A stretch of DNA of 64,000 nucleotides, from NCBI RefSeq assembly GCF_900167535.1, contig NZ_FUYE01000010.1:1-64000 (forward strand), given 5' to 3'. Made by a program: the position numbers and the translations under genes. Within the stretch, counting starts at the first letter, position 1. Each line of letters starts with the position of its first letter. Source of the DNA: Prosthecobacter debontii. GTDB lineage: Bacteria; Verrucomicrobiota; Verrucomicrobiia; Verrucomicrobiales; Verrucomicrobiaceae. Below the pieces are notes generated by a model, which was not told the DNA's origin, ran no database searches, and worked only from the letters and a program-made list of their open reading frames with translations. Positions 46,385 to 54,903 of this stretch are shown piece by piece.

Positions 46385-46412
46385 ATGCTGTTATATGTGT
46401 ATAGTCTTTTGA

Positions 46413-46693
46413 GGCGAACAGTGTCATTAGTGTGCTGCAATATCGATATCAGTGCGAGCCGCAGCGCTTATTTCGAGGTCATGGATGAGCTGGAAGGCCC
46501 ATCCGATCAAGGTTTGAAGGAGTTTGTGCAGCATGATGCATTGCGTTGGCTTTCTTAATCATTGGCTAAACGGAATGAATCGGTATTGCGTGCAATAATA
46601 TCGATATTTGACAGCTCACCAAACCTTTTGTGAAGGCGAGACTAAAAAGAAGTTGGATAGCAGGCCCAGGCTCGGGGATTAAGGCGTAGAGGC
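46413..46693 (-). repeat. dispersed repeat copy R1 (ends in attC-like right box)
   Basis: First of three copies of a repeat (others at 52789-52998 and 54622-54903). The shared core (46413-46623) runs, on the minus strand, from TTGGTGAGC through CGATATT, GCATCATGCTG and CTCCTTCAA to CAGCACACTAATGACACTGTTCGCC. R1 and R3 share another 70 bp or so beyond the core (to GCCTCTAC). Each copy ends a few bases before a cassette gene. A 35-codon ATG-to-TAA frame (46427-46534 here) is open in every copy, but differences between copies are mostly non-synonymous. Confidence 0.7.
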
Positions 46694-46868
46694 ATCGCCG
46701 GGAGGCGCATTGAAGGGTGGGGTAGGTCGCCTACTCCGTCAGGAGCAACACGGCACCGAAGACAGCAGCCTCCGGCAAGCAACCAATGTCGAACGGATGG
46801 GCATCGTCCAAGTCCCGCGCTTCAGCGAGTGCCCGCTGAGCATCCGCAGCTATTCGAGATCAAGTCAG
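46694..46868. other. array sequence next to the element, no gene seen
   Basis: No convincing frame. It ends with the target sequence AAGTCA (46863-46868) that is duplicated at the far side of the inserted element. Confidence 0.4.
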
Positions 46869-46972
46869 GGCCCCCACATACCTCCAACCTATTGATCTTT
46901 GGTCGCAACAAGCATGGCAAAATGGAAGTTTCGTTAGGCTCCAACCGCCCAAACATTGGACCACCAACTTAG

Positions 46973-47227
46973 TTAAGCGTATTCTATCCTATAAAGATGC
47001 GGTGCTGGGTCCACCATCCATGCGCCGCTTGTTATCTCCTGAAGAACGAAAAACTCGATGGGCGATTGTTCGGGCTCATTGGATTTCAAGAAGTATCTTT
47101 GCGTGGTATTGGTCAATAAGGCGACAGAACTCAGTATCGCTTGATGCCATCCGTCACATACCATTGCCCCTCCTATGGATTGGCTATCTGGCCCAACGAT
47201 TTGAAATTTTTGGAAAGTCATACCCAC
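46973..47227 (-). CDS. small protein of unknown function in the element
   Basis: An 84-residue protein (or 82 from the next Met at 47221). Beta-rich pattern: FQIVGPDSQSIGGAMVCDGW, RYFLKSNEPEQSPIEFFVLQEITSGAWMV, PHLYRIEYA. No family recognised. It is the gene nearest the left terminal repeat. AT-rich codon use matches the rest of the element. Confidence 0.45.
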   Translation of the reverse strand: MGMTFQKFQIVGPDSQSIGGAMVCDGWHQAILSSVALLTNTTQRYFLKSNEPEQSPIEFFVLQEITSGAWMVDPAPHLYRIEYA

Positions 47228-47349
47228 TCTCTACGCAAACTTCAACCTAATCCTATCATGAAAGAAACTAATCTTTATTCTAGTGCACTCACATACCATC
47301 TCACCTAATAGGACAAGTTCTCAAAAACTCGAAGAAGGTCCAAGGTTCT

Positions 47350-47616
47350 CTACACTTCGAAAAATCCTACAAACTCTCGCTTCGCTCCATCCCATTGAAT
47401 TCTATCGAGCATGGAAGCGTTCAAGGTTCGAACGTCGTTTTGAACGGCTCCAAAAGCAGAGCACACGCCTTGTAGCTGAATGCTGCAAAGGCCATCCTGA
47501 AAAACGTCTATATGTAAAGTGCCAGTTCGCTCCTCACCCTGGCCATAACGATAACGGATTGGTCTCCCCTGAAAAAACGGAACAATCAAGTGAGCGGGCA
47601 GATAAACAGTGTCCAT
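47350..47616 (-). CDS. small protein of unknown function in the element
   Basis: An 88-residue protein with plausible composition: VYLPAHLIVPFFQGRPIRYRYGQGEERTGTLHIDVFQ near the start and LDRIQWDGAKREFVGFFEV at the end. Not recognised. It is separated from the gene at 46973 by 122 bases. Confidence 0.4.
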   Translation of the reverse strand: MDTVYLPAHLIVPFFQGRPIRYRYGQGEERTGTLHIDVFQDGLCSIQLQGVCSAFGAVQNDVRTLNASMLDRIQWDGAKREFVGFFEV

Positions 47617-47785
47617 GCTTTCCTTACCTCTAAGTCATAAGAATCTTTCTTCTCAATATATGCAATAAACAACTTTATCCATGCATTATCCTGTATACTC
47701 CGTTCGGAATTGCGTTTGCAGTTAGTTGATAATCAATGCTTTATGAATTCTTCTTGCGCCGCAAAAAATGGCTTTAAATTAACCC

Positions 47786-47965
47786 ATGAAGAAGCGCGCC
47801 GCCAAAAAACCTGAATTTTACGAGGGAAAAGAGGCTGCGCAGCGCTTTGAAAGCCTTCTCGACACAGTTTTAACCGTTCCAAAGGACAAAATTTTGGAAC
47901 TAGAAAAGGGCGCTCGAAAAAAATCGGGGGCCGAAAAGAAAAATAGAAAAGAAGGTGCCGATTAA
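47786..47965 (+). CDS. small companion protein of IS1595-type transposase
   Basis: A 59-residue basic protein: KKRAAKKPEFYEGKEAAQRF, then SLLDTVLTVPKDKILELEKG and a Lys-rich end. A short protein with the FYEG...A..RFE...L..VPK pattern is commonly encoded beside ISXO2-like (IS1595) transposases in diverse bacteria. Its function is unknown; a regulatory or transposition-accessory role is possible. Its stop overlaps the convergent transposase stop by 4 bases. Confidence 0.6.
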   Translation: MKKRAAKKPEFYEGKEAAQRFESLLDTVLTVPKDKILELEKGARKKSGAEKKNRKEGAD

Positions 47966-48903
47966 GCACTTTTCGAGATCAGTTCCCTGTATCTGATTCT
48001 CTTGCCAGATACTTCTGAAACCGCCAAATCAAAGCGGTTGGAATCATTGCCCGTTCTCTCGTTAAATCTAAAGGCCTGCTCATCTAAATATCGGAAAAGA
48101 TGGCGGCGGCTAGGGCAAATGTAGGTACCCTTAATTGTGCGCTTCAAAAGACTCCAAAAGTTTTCCATGCCGTTTGTGTGAACGTCGCCCATGACATAAC
48201 AAAAAGCATGATCCACCGTCTTGTGCGTATATCGTTCGTTCAAGCCATTGTAAGACCTGAGGGCATCAGTGTAGAGTTTTGATCCATCCTCAACAAACTC
48301 AGACACGCCGCCATGAATGTCAGGCCGTTTGCGAGAGTTTAAAACTTTGAGGCGAACTTGTGAAGGCCTGTCTTCCGTCCCCCTTTCTAGCGCACCAAAG
48401 ATTGGAATCATAGCAATCGGCCCAGTTCCTTTAACTTTTTCGCGCCGCTTGGATTTATGCATGTTGCTCGCTTTCATGCCGACAAAAGTTTCATCAGCTT
48501 CTACCGTCCCCTTCAGCTTGTCGATACTCCCTTGTTGGAAAGCCAAACGGATGCGATGGCCCATGAACCAAGCAGACTTCTGAGTGATTCCTAAAGTGCG
48601 GGCTAACTCACAAGATGAAGCGCCGTTTTTGGCATTGGCTATGATCCACATTGCAGCCAACCATTTGTCTAGGCCAAGAGGCGAGTTCTCGAAGATCGTC
48701 CCCACCTTAATTGAAAACTGTTTGCGGCAGTCTTTGCAATTCCAGATGCGGCGCGAACGGCTAAAGCCCCCCACATTTTTAGATATACAATGAGGACAGA
48801 TAACTTGCCCATCAGGCCACCTTTTAGACATGAGGTAGTTATGGCAATTCTCTTGGTTTGAGAAGAAAACGATGGCCTCTAGATGGGTGAGCGGCGCTTC
48901 CAT
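47962..48903 (-). CDS. IS1595-family (ISXO2-like) transposase
   Basis: A 313-residue protein. The N-terminal zinc ribbon has CPHC (about residue 36) and CKDC (about 55). A helix-turn-helix follows (SCELARTLGITQKSAWFMGHRIR, about 96-120). The ISXO2-like catalytic domain starts VEADETFVG (first Asp, about 138), then LYTDALRSYNGL (second Asp, about 214) and HTNGMENFWSLLKRTIKGTY (Asn/Glu, about 246). All key residues are present, so it may be active. An Xre-operator-like palindrome sits 3 bases upstream of the ATG, overlapping the ribosome-binding region. Confidence 0.9.
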   Translation of the reverse strand: MEAPLTHLEAIVFFSNQENCHNYLMSKRWPDGQVICPHCISKNVGGFSRSRRIWNCKDCRKQFSIKVGTIFENSPLGLDKWLAAMWIIANAKNGASSCELARTLGITQKSAWFMGHRIRLAFQQGSIDKLKGTVEADETFVGMKASNMHKSKRREKVKGTGPIAMIPIFGALERGTEDRPSQVRLKVLNSRKRPDIHGGVSEFVEDGSKLYTDALRSYNGLNERYTHKTVDHAFCYVMGDVHTNGMENFWSLLKRTIKGTYICPSRRHLFRYLDEQAFRFNERTGNDSNRFDLAVSEVSGKRIRYRELISKSA

Positions 48904-48905
48904 CA

Positions 48906-48919
48906 GGCATTATAATGCC
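48906..48919. promoter_or_regulatory. operator-like palindrome upstream of the transposase
   Basis: GGCATTATAATGCC, a perfect 14-bp palindrome directly before the transposase start. It has the same GGCATT-N2-AATGCC form as the site at 49245-49262 in front of the Xre gene, so both are probable binding sites of that regulator. Confidence 0.6.
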
Positions 48920-48962
48920 CTAAAGTTAGGGCGCAAAGTAATAGTTAAACTATTCGCACCGC

Positions 48963-49211
48963 CTATTTTTTTGCTTCTTTTTGCGCGCGAATAACACAGG
49001 CTCCAAAATCCAACCCCAACCCATCAGCGATCTTTTTCAAAACCCAAAAAGTGGGCCGCGCATCATCGCTTTCAAGATGGGTGATAGTGGTTCTGGCCAC
49101 GCCAATTTGCGCCGCCAGTTGGGTTGCAGAAATCCCCGCGCGCAAACGTTCGTTCTTGAGAATCAAGACGATAGCGCGTTCCATAGGATCAATCTGAGAA
49201 GGGCGTGGCAC
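48963..49211 (-). CDS. Xre-family HTH transcriptional regulator
   Basis: An 82-residue protein that is essentially one HTH_3 domain: LRAGISATQLAAQIGVARTTITHLESDDARPTFWVLKKIADGLGLDF. The start is GTG 49211; an ATG at 49184 would still keep the whole domain. It is divergent from the passenger genes at 49267. Operator-like palindromes lie on both sides of it, so it probably represses its own promoter, the passenger genes and the transposase. Confidence 0.85.
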   Translation of the reverse strand: MPRPSQIDPMERAIVLILKNERLRAGISATQLAAQIGVARTTITHLESDDARPTFWVLKKIADGLGLDFGACVIRAQKEAKK

Positions 49212-49244
49212 CCTACTAAAATTATCGCGTTGACGGGATAAACA

Positions 49245-49262
49245 CGGGCATTAAAATGCCCG
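49245..49262. promoter_or_regulatory. operator-like palindrome between xre-type gene and passenger genes
   Basis: CGGGCATT-AA-AATGCCCG: 8-bp arms around a 2-bp centre, lying 5 bases before the plus-strand gene at 49267 and about 34 bases before the regulator start. It matches the 48906-48919 site in the central 14 bp except for the 2-bp spacer. Confidence 0.6.
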
Positions 49263-49266
49263 ATCT

Positions 49267-49536
49267 ATGAGAACGTTTTTCGCCTTCTGGTTGATGATTC
49301 TTTTTGCCGCTCCGCTTTATGCTGACAAAGCATACTATGACCAACAAGAGGAAATTCGTAAAGCAGCCGAAAGACTTGTTGAGCATGATCGACAACAGCG
49401 GCAAGAGGCGAAGGAACGCTATGACCAAAGATATTCCTATCGCCGCACTCAAAGCGGATGGGAAATTACTTGGATCGTGATCAAATTGATCTTTTGGATA
49501 GGGGTGATTGGGTTCGTTGCCTATTGCTTCATGTGA
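49267..49536 (+). CDS. small exported or membrane-anchored protein
   Basis: An 89-residue protein. The signal peptide is MRTFFAFWLMILFAAPLYA. A charged helical middle follows (YYDQQEEIRKAAERLVEHDRQQRQEAKERYDQRYSY) and then a C-terminal membrane helix (WIVIKLIFWIGVIGFVAYCF). The topology suggests an inner-membrane protein with a periplasmic coiled coil. No family recognised. It starts just after the operator at 49245-49262. Confidence 0.6.
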   Translation: MRTFFAFWLMILFAAPLYADKAYYDQQEEIRKAAERLVEHDRQQRQEAKERYDQRYSYRRTQSGWEITWIVIKLIFWIGVIGFVAYCFM

Positions 49537-49562
49537 TGAATAACTTTTCTAACTTGAAAAAA

Positions 49563-49970
49563 ATGAAAACTTTTTTGGCGGCGCTGCTAATTTTTTCCCT
49601 GTCTTCTTGTGCAGCAAGCAAAGTTGTTCACAGACTTAACCATGACTCCACCTTCCAATATTCGGCGGAAGCTTTGGTAAGGGACTATCTAAACTCTCAA
49701 ATGTATGGAGAAGATGGAAGAAAGTTTGGAATAACTTCAAACTTCTATAACCTGATGCAATATCACATTGAAGGCATGGGCGTGCAATACTGGCAACCCG
49801 CTGTGATTTTTCGTGCGCAGGCTGGCAATCAACTTGGCGGAATAACGTGGAAAAGCTACTGTGCAACCCTTCGCCATGATCCAAAAGCCGAAGCCATGCA
49901 AGATGCGTATTCAGGTTTACGTCTCACTTCCGTAAAACCCACTGTGGAACAATTGTTGAGGGATAATTGA
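49563..49970 (+). CDS. putative lipoprotein
   Basis: A 135-residue protein. MKTFLAALLIFSLSSC is a lipoprotein signal with lipobox LSSC, giving a lipid-attached Cys at residue 16. The mature part (SAEALVRDYLNSQMYGEDGRKFG ... YWQPAVIFRAQAGNQLGGITW) has no known motif. It is 26 bases downstream of the previous gene and 2 bases upstream of the next, within a probable three-gene operon. Confidence 0.6.
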   Translation: MKTFLAALLIFSLSSCAASKVVHRLNHDSTFQYSAEALVRDYLNSQMYGEDGRKFGITSNFYNLMQYHIEGMGVQYWQPAVIFRAQAGNQLGGITWKSYCATLRHDPKAEAMQDAYSGLRLTSVKPTVEQLLRDN

Positions 49971-49972
49971 TT

Positions 49973-50530
49973 ATGATAAAAGACGACCCGCTCTCATTTA
50001 AAGTATTTCCATATCCGCCCAACCATACGAATGGCAGGAAAAACAATGGAGGGTTCGATCTTGTCGCTTATCCATTTAAAATTGATGACATTCACGAAAT
50101 AGCTTCCGTCCCTTGGAAGAAGCAGATTATTGTTCACATAAATCGAAAGGAAGGTATTTTTAAAACCTATGGCTGTGATTTCGAAATTACGCCAGAGGGC
50201 TATGCTAATGGTTATATCGAATTTTCTTTTCGTGACAATTTTTTGAGCGGCGTAATAGAAAATTACGAATTACTTTTCTCTCGATTCCAGGAATTTCTGA
50301 TAAGAACACATCCCGACCCTAATGTAATTCTGGATTCTCAAAACCTCCAAAAGGCACAAATCTTCCTTCAGAACGAGGGTTCAGTAATATGGAAGATACA
50401 TTACGACTACATTGCTCAAAATCAGGATGCAGCCAGCCAACTCGTTCAATTATTCTTTTGTAAGCTTGAGGAGATAGCCAACCGCGAATTAATATCTCCC
50501 AAAACAGCTTCCGAAGTATCTTCTTCATAA
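49973..50530 (+). CDS. protein of unknown function
   Basis: A 185-residue soluble protein. Strand-rich N-terminal half (HEIASVPWKKQIIVHINRKEGIFKTYGCDFEI), aromatic-rich centre (GYIEFSFRDNFLSGVIENYELLFSRFQEFL), and a helical C-terminus. Third gene of the plus-strand passenger operon; no family recognised. Confidence 0.55.
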   Translation: MIKDDPLSFKVFPYPPNHTNGRKNNGGFDLVAYPFKIDDIHEIASVPWKKQIIVHINRKEGIFKTYGCDFEITPEGYANGYIEFSFRDNFLSGVIENYELLFSRFQEFLIRTHPDPNVILDSQNLQKAQIFLQNEGSVIWKIHYDYIAQNQDAASQLVQLFFCKLEEIANRELISPKTASEVSSS

Positions 50531-50559
50531 GTTTAGGAATAGAATGCAATCAGTTGCTG

Positions 50560-50602
50560 AGGTTGACATCCTCCCCGCCCTAAAAGGACGAGGATTCCTA
50601 GG
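50560..50602. repeat. IS200/IS605-type terminal hairpin remnant
   Basis: The sequence GGTTGACATCCTCCCCGCCC, then TAAAAGGACGAGGATTCC, is the well-known subterminal imperfect hairpin of IS200/IS605 (TnpB-carrying) elements, with ATCCTC/GAGGAT as the outer stem. No tnpA or tnpB is nearby, so it is a solo end or a target acquired by transposition. Confidence 0.5.
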
Positions 50603-50608
50603 AAGTAA

Positions 50609-50860
50609 TTGGTTGATTTGAAAGATAAAGGCGCGGATAATCGTACAAGAGGCATGAGAGCGATCGTAGAAATTCCGAAAGGCGAGCCGTTTACAGGCAC
50701 TCAAATACTAACTTTAGAAACCGCGCCACAAGTTGGCCATTATATTGGTGATGCAAACGGAAGGCTTTACCGCATTGAAAAAGTAGTTCATCTACTCACC
50801 CGTAACGAAGAAGCTGGCTATCCATTCTTGAAGCTTATCGTTCAGAAGGAGACGACATAA
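50609..50860 (+). CDS. small protein of unknown function
   Basis: An 83-residue frame starting at TTG; an internal ATG at 50654 is an alternative. The part MRAIVEIPKGEPFTGTQILTLETAPQVGHYIGDANGRLYRIEKVVHLL looks like a small beta-barrel-forming domain. It lies after the IS605-type hairpin and overlaps the tail of a convergent small frame by 26 bases. Confidence 0.4.
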   Translation: MVDLKDKGADNRTRGMRAIVEIPKGEPFTGTQILTLETAPQVGHYIGDANGRLYRIEKVVHLLTRNEEAGYPFLKLIVQKETT

Positions 50861-51014
50861 AGACAGTTTTATAAAAAGCGGCGGTCTTGCCAGGAGGGAC
50901 GTTTTCGATCATCCATTTATAGCCCTCGATCTTTTCAAGGTTGAGAGCGATCTTCTCTTTCAGCCCATCCAACAAGCTCTTGTATGCCCATTCATCAGGA
51001 GTCAAATCTGCCAT
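50835..51014 (-). CDS. small helical protein near right end of the element
   Basis: A 59-residue protein: MADLTPDEWAYKSLLDGL, KEKIALNLEKIEGYKWMIEN, VPPGKTAAFYKTVFMSS. Compact and plausible but unrecognised. The in-frame TTG at 51029 is an alternative start. Confidence 0.35.
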   Translation of the reverse strand: MADLTPDEWAYKSLLDGLKEKIALNLEKIEGYKWMIENVPPGKTAAFYKTVFMSSPSER

Positions 51015-51113
51015 CTTTCGGTTTTGCAACCCCTGCCATCAGGGCATCATTGCACACATTTCTCCGATCTAACTGAGACGATTTCTCGTTAGGAGAGAGG
51101 TATGTGGGGGCCC

Positions 51114-51426
51114 AAGTCAGAGGTCAACTTTCCGAAAAGCAGGTCTAGAAAATGAAAAATCAGACCGAGATTTCCGGAAAGCAGACCAAGAGAATGAAAA
51201 TCTCGGTCTCGAATGGAAACAGATCATCAGGATTTGATGGAGTGCTGGCACTCGGAATGCCGGACGATTCCGATACAGTAACGGTCCTTACAGTCAAAAC
51301 CGGAGCCATTTGCTGCCGCGCATGGTTAGGGATTGCGGCTGTTGTCATGGGTTAATTCATCGCCGTGGTGCAGGCTACCACGAAGCTATCGGAACGAACG
51401 ACAACAATGCCCTGCCAGCCCATGCA
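51114..51426. other. cassette-array DNA right of the element, no firm gene
   Basis: Contains two direct-repeat units of about 34 bp with about 80 percent identity (51128-51161 and 51170-51203), plus a CAGACCGAGATTTC/GAAAATCTCGGTCTC inverted pair. Overlapping 62- and 67-codon frames on opposite strands (51160-51348 minus, 51152-51355 plus) cannot be told apart as real or accidental. Near 51370-51390 is a hairpin CGTGGT/ACCACG that could be a worn attC. Confidence 0.35.
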
Positions 51427-52479: not shown

Positions 52480-52782
52480 TCATGTGTGTCCATAGCAAAG
52501 CGCAATAACGGAATCTCCACCAGACTCTGCCGACCGATAATTGATAAACGCTGAGCACTCATTGAGGGCTTCGTAAATCTCAGGGCAACGGGTCTTCAGT
52601 GCCCTCATCCCCTTGAGGTCGAGACGCAGGCTGCTCTCTCCAACAGCAAAATCCTTCATGCAGTCGATCCACGCATCCATGTTCCGGCCATAGTAGTCTG
52701 GAGAGTCGAACAACTGGGCGAAGAGTTCGTGGAAAGACTCCCATCCGGTGACCGTCGTCAGGTCTATTGTGGCGATCTTCAT
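52480..52782 (-). CDS. barstar-like ribonuclease inhibitor
   Basis: A 100-residue protein with the barstar fold pattern: GWESFHELFAQLFDSPDYYGRNMDAWIDCMKDF (residues about 13-46), in which YYGRNMDAWIDC is the signature, then SLRLDLKGM and CPEIYEALNECSAFINYR. Barstars neutralise barnase-type RNases and are common as orphan immunity genes. No barnase-like partner is next to it. It begins 7 bases after the right-hand box GTTCGGC of repeat R2. Confidence 0.8.
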   Translation of the reverse strand: MKIATIDLTTVTGWESFHELFAQLFDSPDYYGRNMDAWIDCMKDFAVGESSLRLDLKGMRALKTRCPEIYEALNECSAFINYRSAESGGDSVIALCYGHT

Positions 52783-52788
52783 GTCTTA

Positions 52789-52998
52789 GCCGAACAGTGT
52801 CATTAGTGTGCTGCAATATCGATATCAATGCGATACGCAGTGGTTATTTCCGGGGCATCCATGAGCGGGCAGGCCTGTCCAGTCAAGGTTTGAAGGAGTT
52901 TGGGGAGCATGATGCATGAAGTTTGGCTTTCTTAACCATGGGCTCAACAAAAGGAATCGATATAGCGTGCAAAATATCGATCTTTGACGGCTCACCAA
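52789..52998 (-). repeat. dispersed repeat copy R2
   Basis: Second copy of the cassette-array repeat, limited to the core. On the minus strand it starts right after the stop of the gene at 53009 (with a possible left box TTCGAAC at 53008-53002) and ends in GTTCGGC (52795-52789), 7 bases before the barstar-like gene. The 35-codon frame is 52803-52910. If R2 is itself an attC, it would be 220 nt, longer than known sites. Confidence 0.7.
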
Positions 52999-54324: not shown

Positions 54325-54612
54325 TCAGACTTTGATTCTTCCAGACTGCCAGCCATCCACAAGATCTGCGACGGTCGTGGCAACGGGTTCGAATTGGCGT
54401 TCAATCGGGTGGTAAGTGTAGATCCCATCCTTCTCGGGGTGGCAGCAAAACTGAATCCGATCGACTCCCGGACCTCCAATCGAAACCCACCCCGGACAAT
54501 CTATCATCTCCCATTCGTCAACAGGACGGACGGTCCAATAGTGCTCCTCCTGCGAGTAAACGCCGTCACGCGGAGCTTGGACCTTCATCGCAATGTTATC
54601 GTGGAGGGTCAT
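54325..54612 (-). CDS. small cassette protein of unknown function
   Basis: A 95-residue protein: YSQEEHYWTVRPVDEWEMID, CPGWVSIGGPGVDRIQFCCH, PEKDGIYTYHPIERQFEPVA, then a helix TVADLVDGWQSGRIKV. The pattern, with WxxxxP and a final W-containing helix, resembles SUKH/SMI1-type immunity fragments, but I cannot assign it. It starts 10 bases after the right-hand box GTTCTGC that closes repeat R3. Confidence 0.6.
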   Translation of the reverse strand: MTLHDNIAMKVQAPRDGVYSQEEHYWTVRPVDEWEMIDCPGWVSIGGPGVDRIQFCCHPEKDGIYTYHPIERQFEPVATTVADLVDGWQSGRIKV

Positions 54613-54621
54613 GATTTCTTG

Positions 54622-54903
54622 GCAGAACAGTGTGATTAGTGTGCTGCGATATCAATATCAGTGCGATACGCAGCGGTTATTTCCGGGTCATGAATGAGCT
54701 TGAAGGCCCGTCCCATCAAGGATTGAAGGAGTTTGGACAGCATGATGCATGAAGTTTGGCTTTCTTAATCATGGGCTAAACGGAATAAATCGATATGGTG
54801 CGCAAAATATCGATCTTTGACGGATCACCAATCTTTTTGTTAAGATGAAGACTAAAGAGAGGATGAGAGGAACCGTCAGGCTGGGGCATAAGGATGTAGA
54901 GGC
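54622..54903 (-). repeat. dispersed repeat copy R3
   Basis: Third copy, core 54622-54831, with homology to R1 continuing to 54903. Right box GTTCTGC (54628-54622). The 35-codon frame is at 54636-54743 and is intact. The copies differ by scattered substitutions and few indels, so they are old duplicates or recombinant cassettes. Confidence 0.7.

Follow-up and report, generated by a model that had tools for sequence, protein, structure and literature searches.

Positions 46869-51112 of the DNA examined here (the window, a stretch of 64,000 nucleotides from contig NZ_FUYE01000010.1 of Prosthecobacter debontii) very probably represent an intact-looking, single-copy transposon of the IS1595 family, of the transporter IS kind, which would have been inserted as one unit together with its passenger genes. 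In agreement with the original prediction, the data support a single composite insertion with IS1595-type transposase, small companion gene and passengers, a case strengthened by related elements in other genomes. With regard to mechanism, the IS1595 transposase would act on the GGCCCCCACATACCTC ends and insert all 4,244 bp in a single event, with duplication of the 8-bp target CAAGTCAG. Transposase and lysine-rich companion would form the core, and interchangeable passengers would surround it: an XRE regulator, an exported protein and a lipoprotein encoded divergently from it, and then a protein of a phage-accessory family.

Boundaries of the Element and Target-Site Duplication

By direct reading, the 4,244-bp element starts with GGCCCCCACATACCTC and closes with its exact reverse complement, the terminal inverted repeats being located at 46869-46884 (plus strand) and 51097-51112 (minus strand). 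Identical copies of CAAGTCAG adjoin on the left (46861-46868) and on the right (51113-51120). The flank junctions read ...GATCAAGTCAG/GGCCCCC on the left and GGGGGCC/CAAGTCAGAGG... on the right, and the duplicated target is therefore CAAGTCAG, 8 bp in length. Matching ends and a flanking direct repeat that bound the unit, as originally proposed, are thus real and perfect over 46869-51112, while their details had to be corrected. The duplication had been given as the 6-bp AAGTCA and the tip as GGGCCC, set one base too far outward on either side. The target has C as its first and G as its last base, which next to GGCC simulates longer ends; the outermost G on the left and the outermost C on the right are in fact part of the duplicated target, two bases of which were thereby hidden, and the tip is GGCC. 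From the proposed 24-bp ends with 17 perfect bases, 16 identical bases remain, followed by a weak match (CAACCT vs. TCTCCT).

Target duplications of IS1595 elements typically measure 8 bp (PMC8101967), and the one found here has this length. It is the expected one and not unusual, as had been assumed, because IS1595 elements are described with 8-bp duplications, ISApl4 among them. Both tips of the element carry GG, as is the norm in this family, and comparison of 44 end sequences revealed G as base 1 in 42 and as base 2 in all 44.

A blind end-pair search yielded this pair as the sole one around the transposase that combined a 14-bp end with an 8-bp repeat at zero mismatches, in a boundary search that rewards direct repeats and hence favours finding them. 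When mismatches in the 16-bp end plus twice the mismatches in the 8-bp repeat were taken as a score, the best value among 60 triplet-shuffled versions of the region was 3, as compared to 0 for the real sequence. Exact matches to GGCCCCCACATACCTC in the 6.29-Mb genome are confined to these two ends, and the GC content of the element amounts to 44.5% vs. 53.5% in the flanks.

A second copy of the element was not found in its own genome. Joined flanks, searched in 67 family genomes, matched nothing but the two sides of this insertion and short repeats. A search of 67-68 family genomes for an orthologous locus that retains the outer genes and lacks the core, which had been named as the finding that would speak against the unit, was negative, with neither outer genes nor joined flanks found at the DNA level. 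The suggested search for empty sites and further copies via the ends thus led to related ends in two genomes, G034 and G013 (see below), and to no empty site. Scanning of genome contigs with the end sequence gave 20 places, three of which (L015, L020, L021) have element-like ends, while the other places inspected look like chance; the same scan of viral contigs gave none. DNA similarity to the element in plasmids is limited to a short IS605-like stretch, and an Rfam scan of 42-64 kb was negative.

Surroundings of the Insertion

The array in which the element resides, a putative cassette array according to the original prediction, contains a 223-bp repeat between its genes (46400-46622, 52776-52998 and 54609-54831) with 71-86% identity to the reference copy. 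Contig C13 of this genome has four sites that match the stretch which ends and follows this repeat. Beside the element, a 100-aa frame (52480-52782, minus strand) reads as a putative barstar-type ribonuclease inhibitor. For an integron integrase, there was no match above cut-off in the same genome, with a family that also responds in controls; an integron-integrase-like frame with one TAG lies below the curated cut-off on another contig of this genome (L098, G000:C30:21694-22209).

Transposase and Family Membership

The transposase (47962-48903, minus strand) is an intact protein of 313 aa and matches PF12762 (1.3e-36), PF12760 (7.2e-12) and NF033547 (4.4e-50), all above curated cut-offs; for NF033547 the score is 170.5 bits against a cut-off of 75. 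The catalytic residues D, D and E reside in the motifs VEADETFVG, YTDALRSY and HTNGMENFW and are conserved in an alignment of this protein with eight relatives. The PF12760 match corresponds to an N-terminal zinc ribbon, a feature of all IS1595 groups except IS1016; named subgroups of the family are ISPna2, ISSod11, ISNwi1, ISNha5, ISH4 and IS1595. Passengers unrelated to transposition lie between the inverted ends and include at least the exported protein, the lipoprotein and the 185-aa phage-family protein, whereas no relaxase was matched above cut-off among the predicted proteins (Pfam/NCBIfam).

In five genomes of a single genus, an IS1595-type transposase frame with one in-frame TAG occurs in the same order (L036, L037, L051, L052, L056). 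Either an old copy common to these genomes or read-through could account for this.

The Companion Protein

Convergent with the transposase, a small protein of 59 aa is encoded at 47786-47965 (plus strand). Four small proteins located near these transposases align around the pattern F..F......V.VPK..I...E, and the resulting profile was searched in 285 genomes of the class, independently of the presence of any transposase. All 16 significant places (E < 1e-5) lie in delimited elements or within approximately 1.1 kb of another IS1595 transposase, in a search biased to close kin, as the four profile members came from IS1595 loci, and in which distant members may be missed. Among the 11 newly found places, nine are inside elements with exact 8-bp repeats; these nine elements carry passengers as well, including DUF3800 proteins in two. 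The sole further profile match (E 0.002) lies inside a frame of 2,414 codons and looks like chance.

The lysine-rich companion goes with this transposase clade and probably assists or regulates transposition. Its position and strand vary, from convergent beside the transposase in some elements to the far end in others, and for this reason we only infer a role in transposition. No description of the protein was found in the literature searched, which did not extend to Siguier et al. 2009, reportedly the founding description of the IS1595 family.

Passenger Genes

The left region of the element (46885-47780) contains short or broken frames only in six-frame reading, two of which gave no Pfam/NCBIfam match. 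To the right of the transposase, an XRE-type DNA-binding regulator of 82 aa (48963-49211, minus strand; PF01381, 1e-11) is followed by a divergent gene for a small exported or membrane protein of 89 aa (49267-49536, plus strand), predicted from a signal-like N-terminus and a C-terminal hydrophobic stretch and without a family match above cut-off. Next come a predicted lipoprotein with a signal peptide ending in FSLSSC (49539-49970, plus strand), which gave neither a family match above cut-off nor a plasmid match, and a 185-aa protein of a phage-accessory family (49973-50530, plus strand; phrog_18578, 7.2e-15). The remaining frames are an 83-aa one with nothing beyond a weak match to phrog_33073 (0.0043; 50609-50860, plus strand) and a 64-aa one from the open reading frame list (50835-51029, minus strand). 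Most cargo genes are without family support.

The loci L095/L096, L097 and L156 likewise pair an XRE regulator with a divergent gene for a secreted protein or lipoprotein, the exported proteins being unrelated. Chromosomal XRE relatives at L075, L077 and L078 are divergent from a gene for a putative GYF-type membrane protein, and no IS1595 transposase was seen among the frames listed there.

Relatives of the 185-aa protein occur in Pasteurella, Mannheimia and Acinetobacter phage records and on a Pantoea plasmid. In the phages they lie singly and are oriented against the adjacent genes: in Pasteurella with lysis genes on one side and antiterminator Q on the other, in Mannheimia close to the holin, and in the Acinetobacter phage record flanked by tail genes. 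An isolated reverse-strand position of this kind is typical of accessory genes of prophages, with effects on the host or on competing phages. Another relative adjoins a DNA-methyltransferase-like frame in G295, and the 387 genomes of the phylum hold one distant match. The protein gave no match in viral contigs in a single-sequence search and none among PDB sequences in a profile search, and a structure model built from one sequence was too poor for use (mean pLDDT 40.6). The cargo may benefit the host, and interference with the entry of phages or other elements would then be the most likely way, a step that we nevertheless regard as doubtful.

Between the 185-aa and 83-aa frames, the stretch 50560-50606 resembles an IS200/IS605-type end and matches 1222 plasmid records. 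It is found in archaea too and adjoins a YdcM-type transposase in one of three plasmid records inspected, while the window retains no tnpB gene in its vicinity. It is probably a relic of an IS200/IS605 element nested in the larger one.

Sister Core in the Same Genus and Wider Relatives

The closest transposase among 143 related genomes (86% identity) is encoded on contig C683 of the same-genus genome G034. Here, the order of small open reading frame (66%), transposase (86%) and XRE regulator (84%) is retained, together with a near-matching left end, GACCCCCACATACCCC, while the DNA to the left of the small open reading frame is unrelated and the contig stops just beyond the regulator, before any right-hand cargo. 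Lone ends are present elsewhere, i.e., one left and one right end on two other contigs of G034 and one right end in G013, and the last 24 bases of the element studied here are identical to an element end on contig C664 of G034. The 8 bases that adjoin the ends are CTGAATAG on C683 and CTTTTTAG, CTAAATAG and CAAACTAG at the lone ends of G034 and G013. This pattern is what several elements with common ends and differing contents would leave in fragmented assemblies.

In total, 21 other elements have related ends and exact flanking repeats of 8 bp by which they could be delimited, 19 of them in Verrucomicrobiota and two on plasmids, and extra coding frames are present in all. Ten Verrucomicrobiota loci with transposases of 39-57% identity (G056, G154 twice, G292, G301 twice, G163, G079, G127 and G087) could all be delimited, each with an exact repeat of 8 bp and with ends that approximate GGNANNTAYATACTTGACT. 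They span 1,983-4,297 bp and invariably exceed what a transposase needs. Their cargo ranges from a HicA-like frame with a HicB-type antitoxin (L090), HicA with a RelA/SpoT protein (L091; PADLOC PDC-S33, 4.7e-111), an EcoRI-type methylase (L092) and a GmrSD-HNH endonuclease with an EcoRI-type methylase (L093) to secreted proteins or lipoproteins (L095-L097), the rest carrying unknown or membrane proteins. Plasmid relatives from Mesorhizobium and Methylobacterium delimit likewise, the latter with a gene annotated as VapC. Boundaries were found neither around four other plasmid loci (L124, L125, L126 and L129) nor around L162 and L163. Judged from these gene contents, passenger carriage and exchange, some of it of predicted defence type, is usual in this IS1595 lineage. 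The cargo, originally considered unusual, therefore loses this status, since every relative that can be delimited contains extra genes and several exhibit the layout of XRE regulator plus exported protein.

Comparison With Known Systems and Alternative Explanations

IS1595 elements that carry passengers are regarded as borderline between insertion sequences and transposons. The name transporter IS (tIS) has been given to members of the family with passengers (PMC3129680), and recorded examples are tISCpe8 and MTnSag1/tISSag10 (PMC5704250) as well as ISNha5, for which a transcription regulator is on record as passenger (PMC11891212). These elements share with the one described here an IS1595-type DDE transposase, inverted ends, target duplication and passengers between the ends. 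On the other hand, the passengers differ, with a regulator, an exported protein, a lipoprotein and a phage-accessory protein in the present case instead of resistance or mobilization genes. ISApl4 agrees in the motif pattern of the transposase and in the 8-bp duplication (PMC12561309), but is a passenger-free element of 712 bp from the IS1016 subgroup, whereas the present unit of 4,244 bp has a zinc-ribbon transposase. Eukaryotic Merlin transposons exhibit a related DDE domain, GG tips and 8-bp duplications (PMC8101967), a likeness that reflects distant relation only.

That the end pair is coincidental and merely frames unrelated genes beside an IS1595 transposase could be argued from the lack of both a second copy in the genome and an empty site. 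It is, however, scarcely credible in view of exact 16-bp ends and an exact 8-bp repeat that beat the shuffle null, and of an end that recurs in G034 and G013 and resembles those of 21 other elements. A plain IS1595 element could also have arrived first and captured its outer genes later by recombination or nested insertion, so that the unit was not whole on arrival; the IS605-type end-like relic inside and the broken frames at the left do mean that the interior was remodelled at some time. Even so, the perfect duplication and matching ends imply that the unit was complete when it was last inserted, and the delimited relatives are all composite already, which makes later capture very improbable, if somewhat less so than coincidence. 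Insertion as one unit with passengers thus appears by far the best reading.

For the companion, an antitoxin-like or host-interaction protein that rides along with the element is an appreciable, albeit less probable, alternative to a transposition partner. Its place and strand relative to the transposase differ between elements, as might be expected of such a protein, but it tracks the transposase clade and no particular passenger, and all 16 places are spread over many different cargoes. The partner reading is therefore preferred. Tentatively, and with rather less assurance than in the case of the companion itself, a widespread Verrucomicrobiota IS1595 lineage may be envisaged in which a dedicated small partner is required for the transposition of oversized units, or controls it, and which acts as a carrier exchanging defence-type cassettes (toxin-antitoxin, RelA/SpoT, restriction and phage-exclusion lipoproteins) between genomes.

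Taken by itself, the element is ordinary for its kind, and a regulator as passenger is already known from ISNha5. What reaches beyond the single element is the pattern in the lineage, with extra genes in each delimited relative and a companion that tracks the transposase. If the companion were a transposition partner, the route from a small insertion sequence to a gene carrier would be open to a simple assay.
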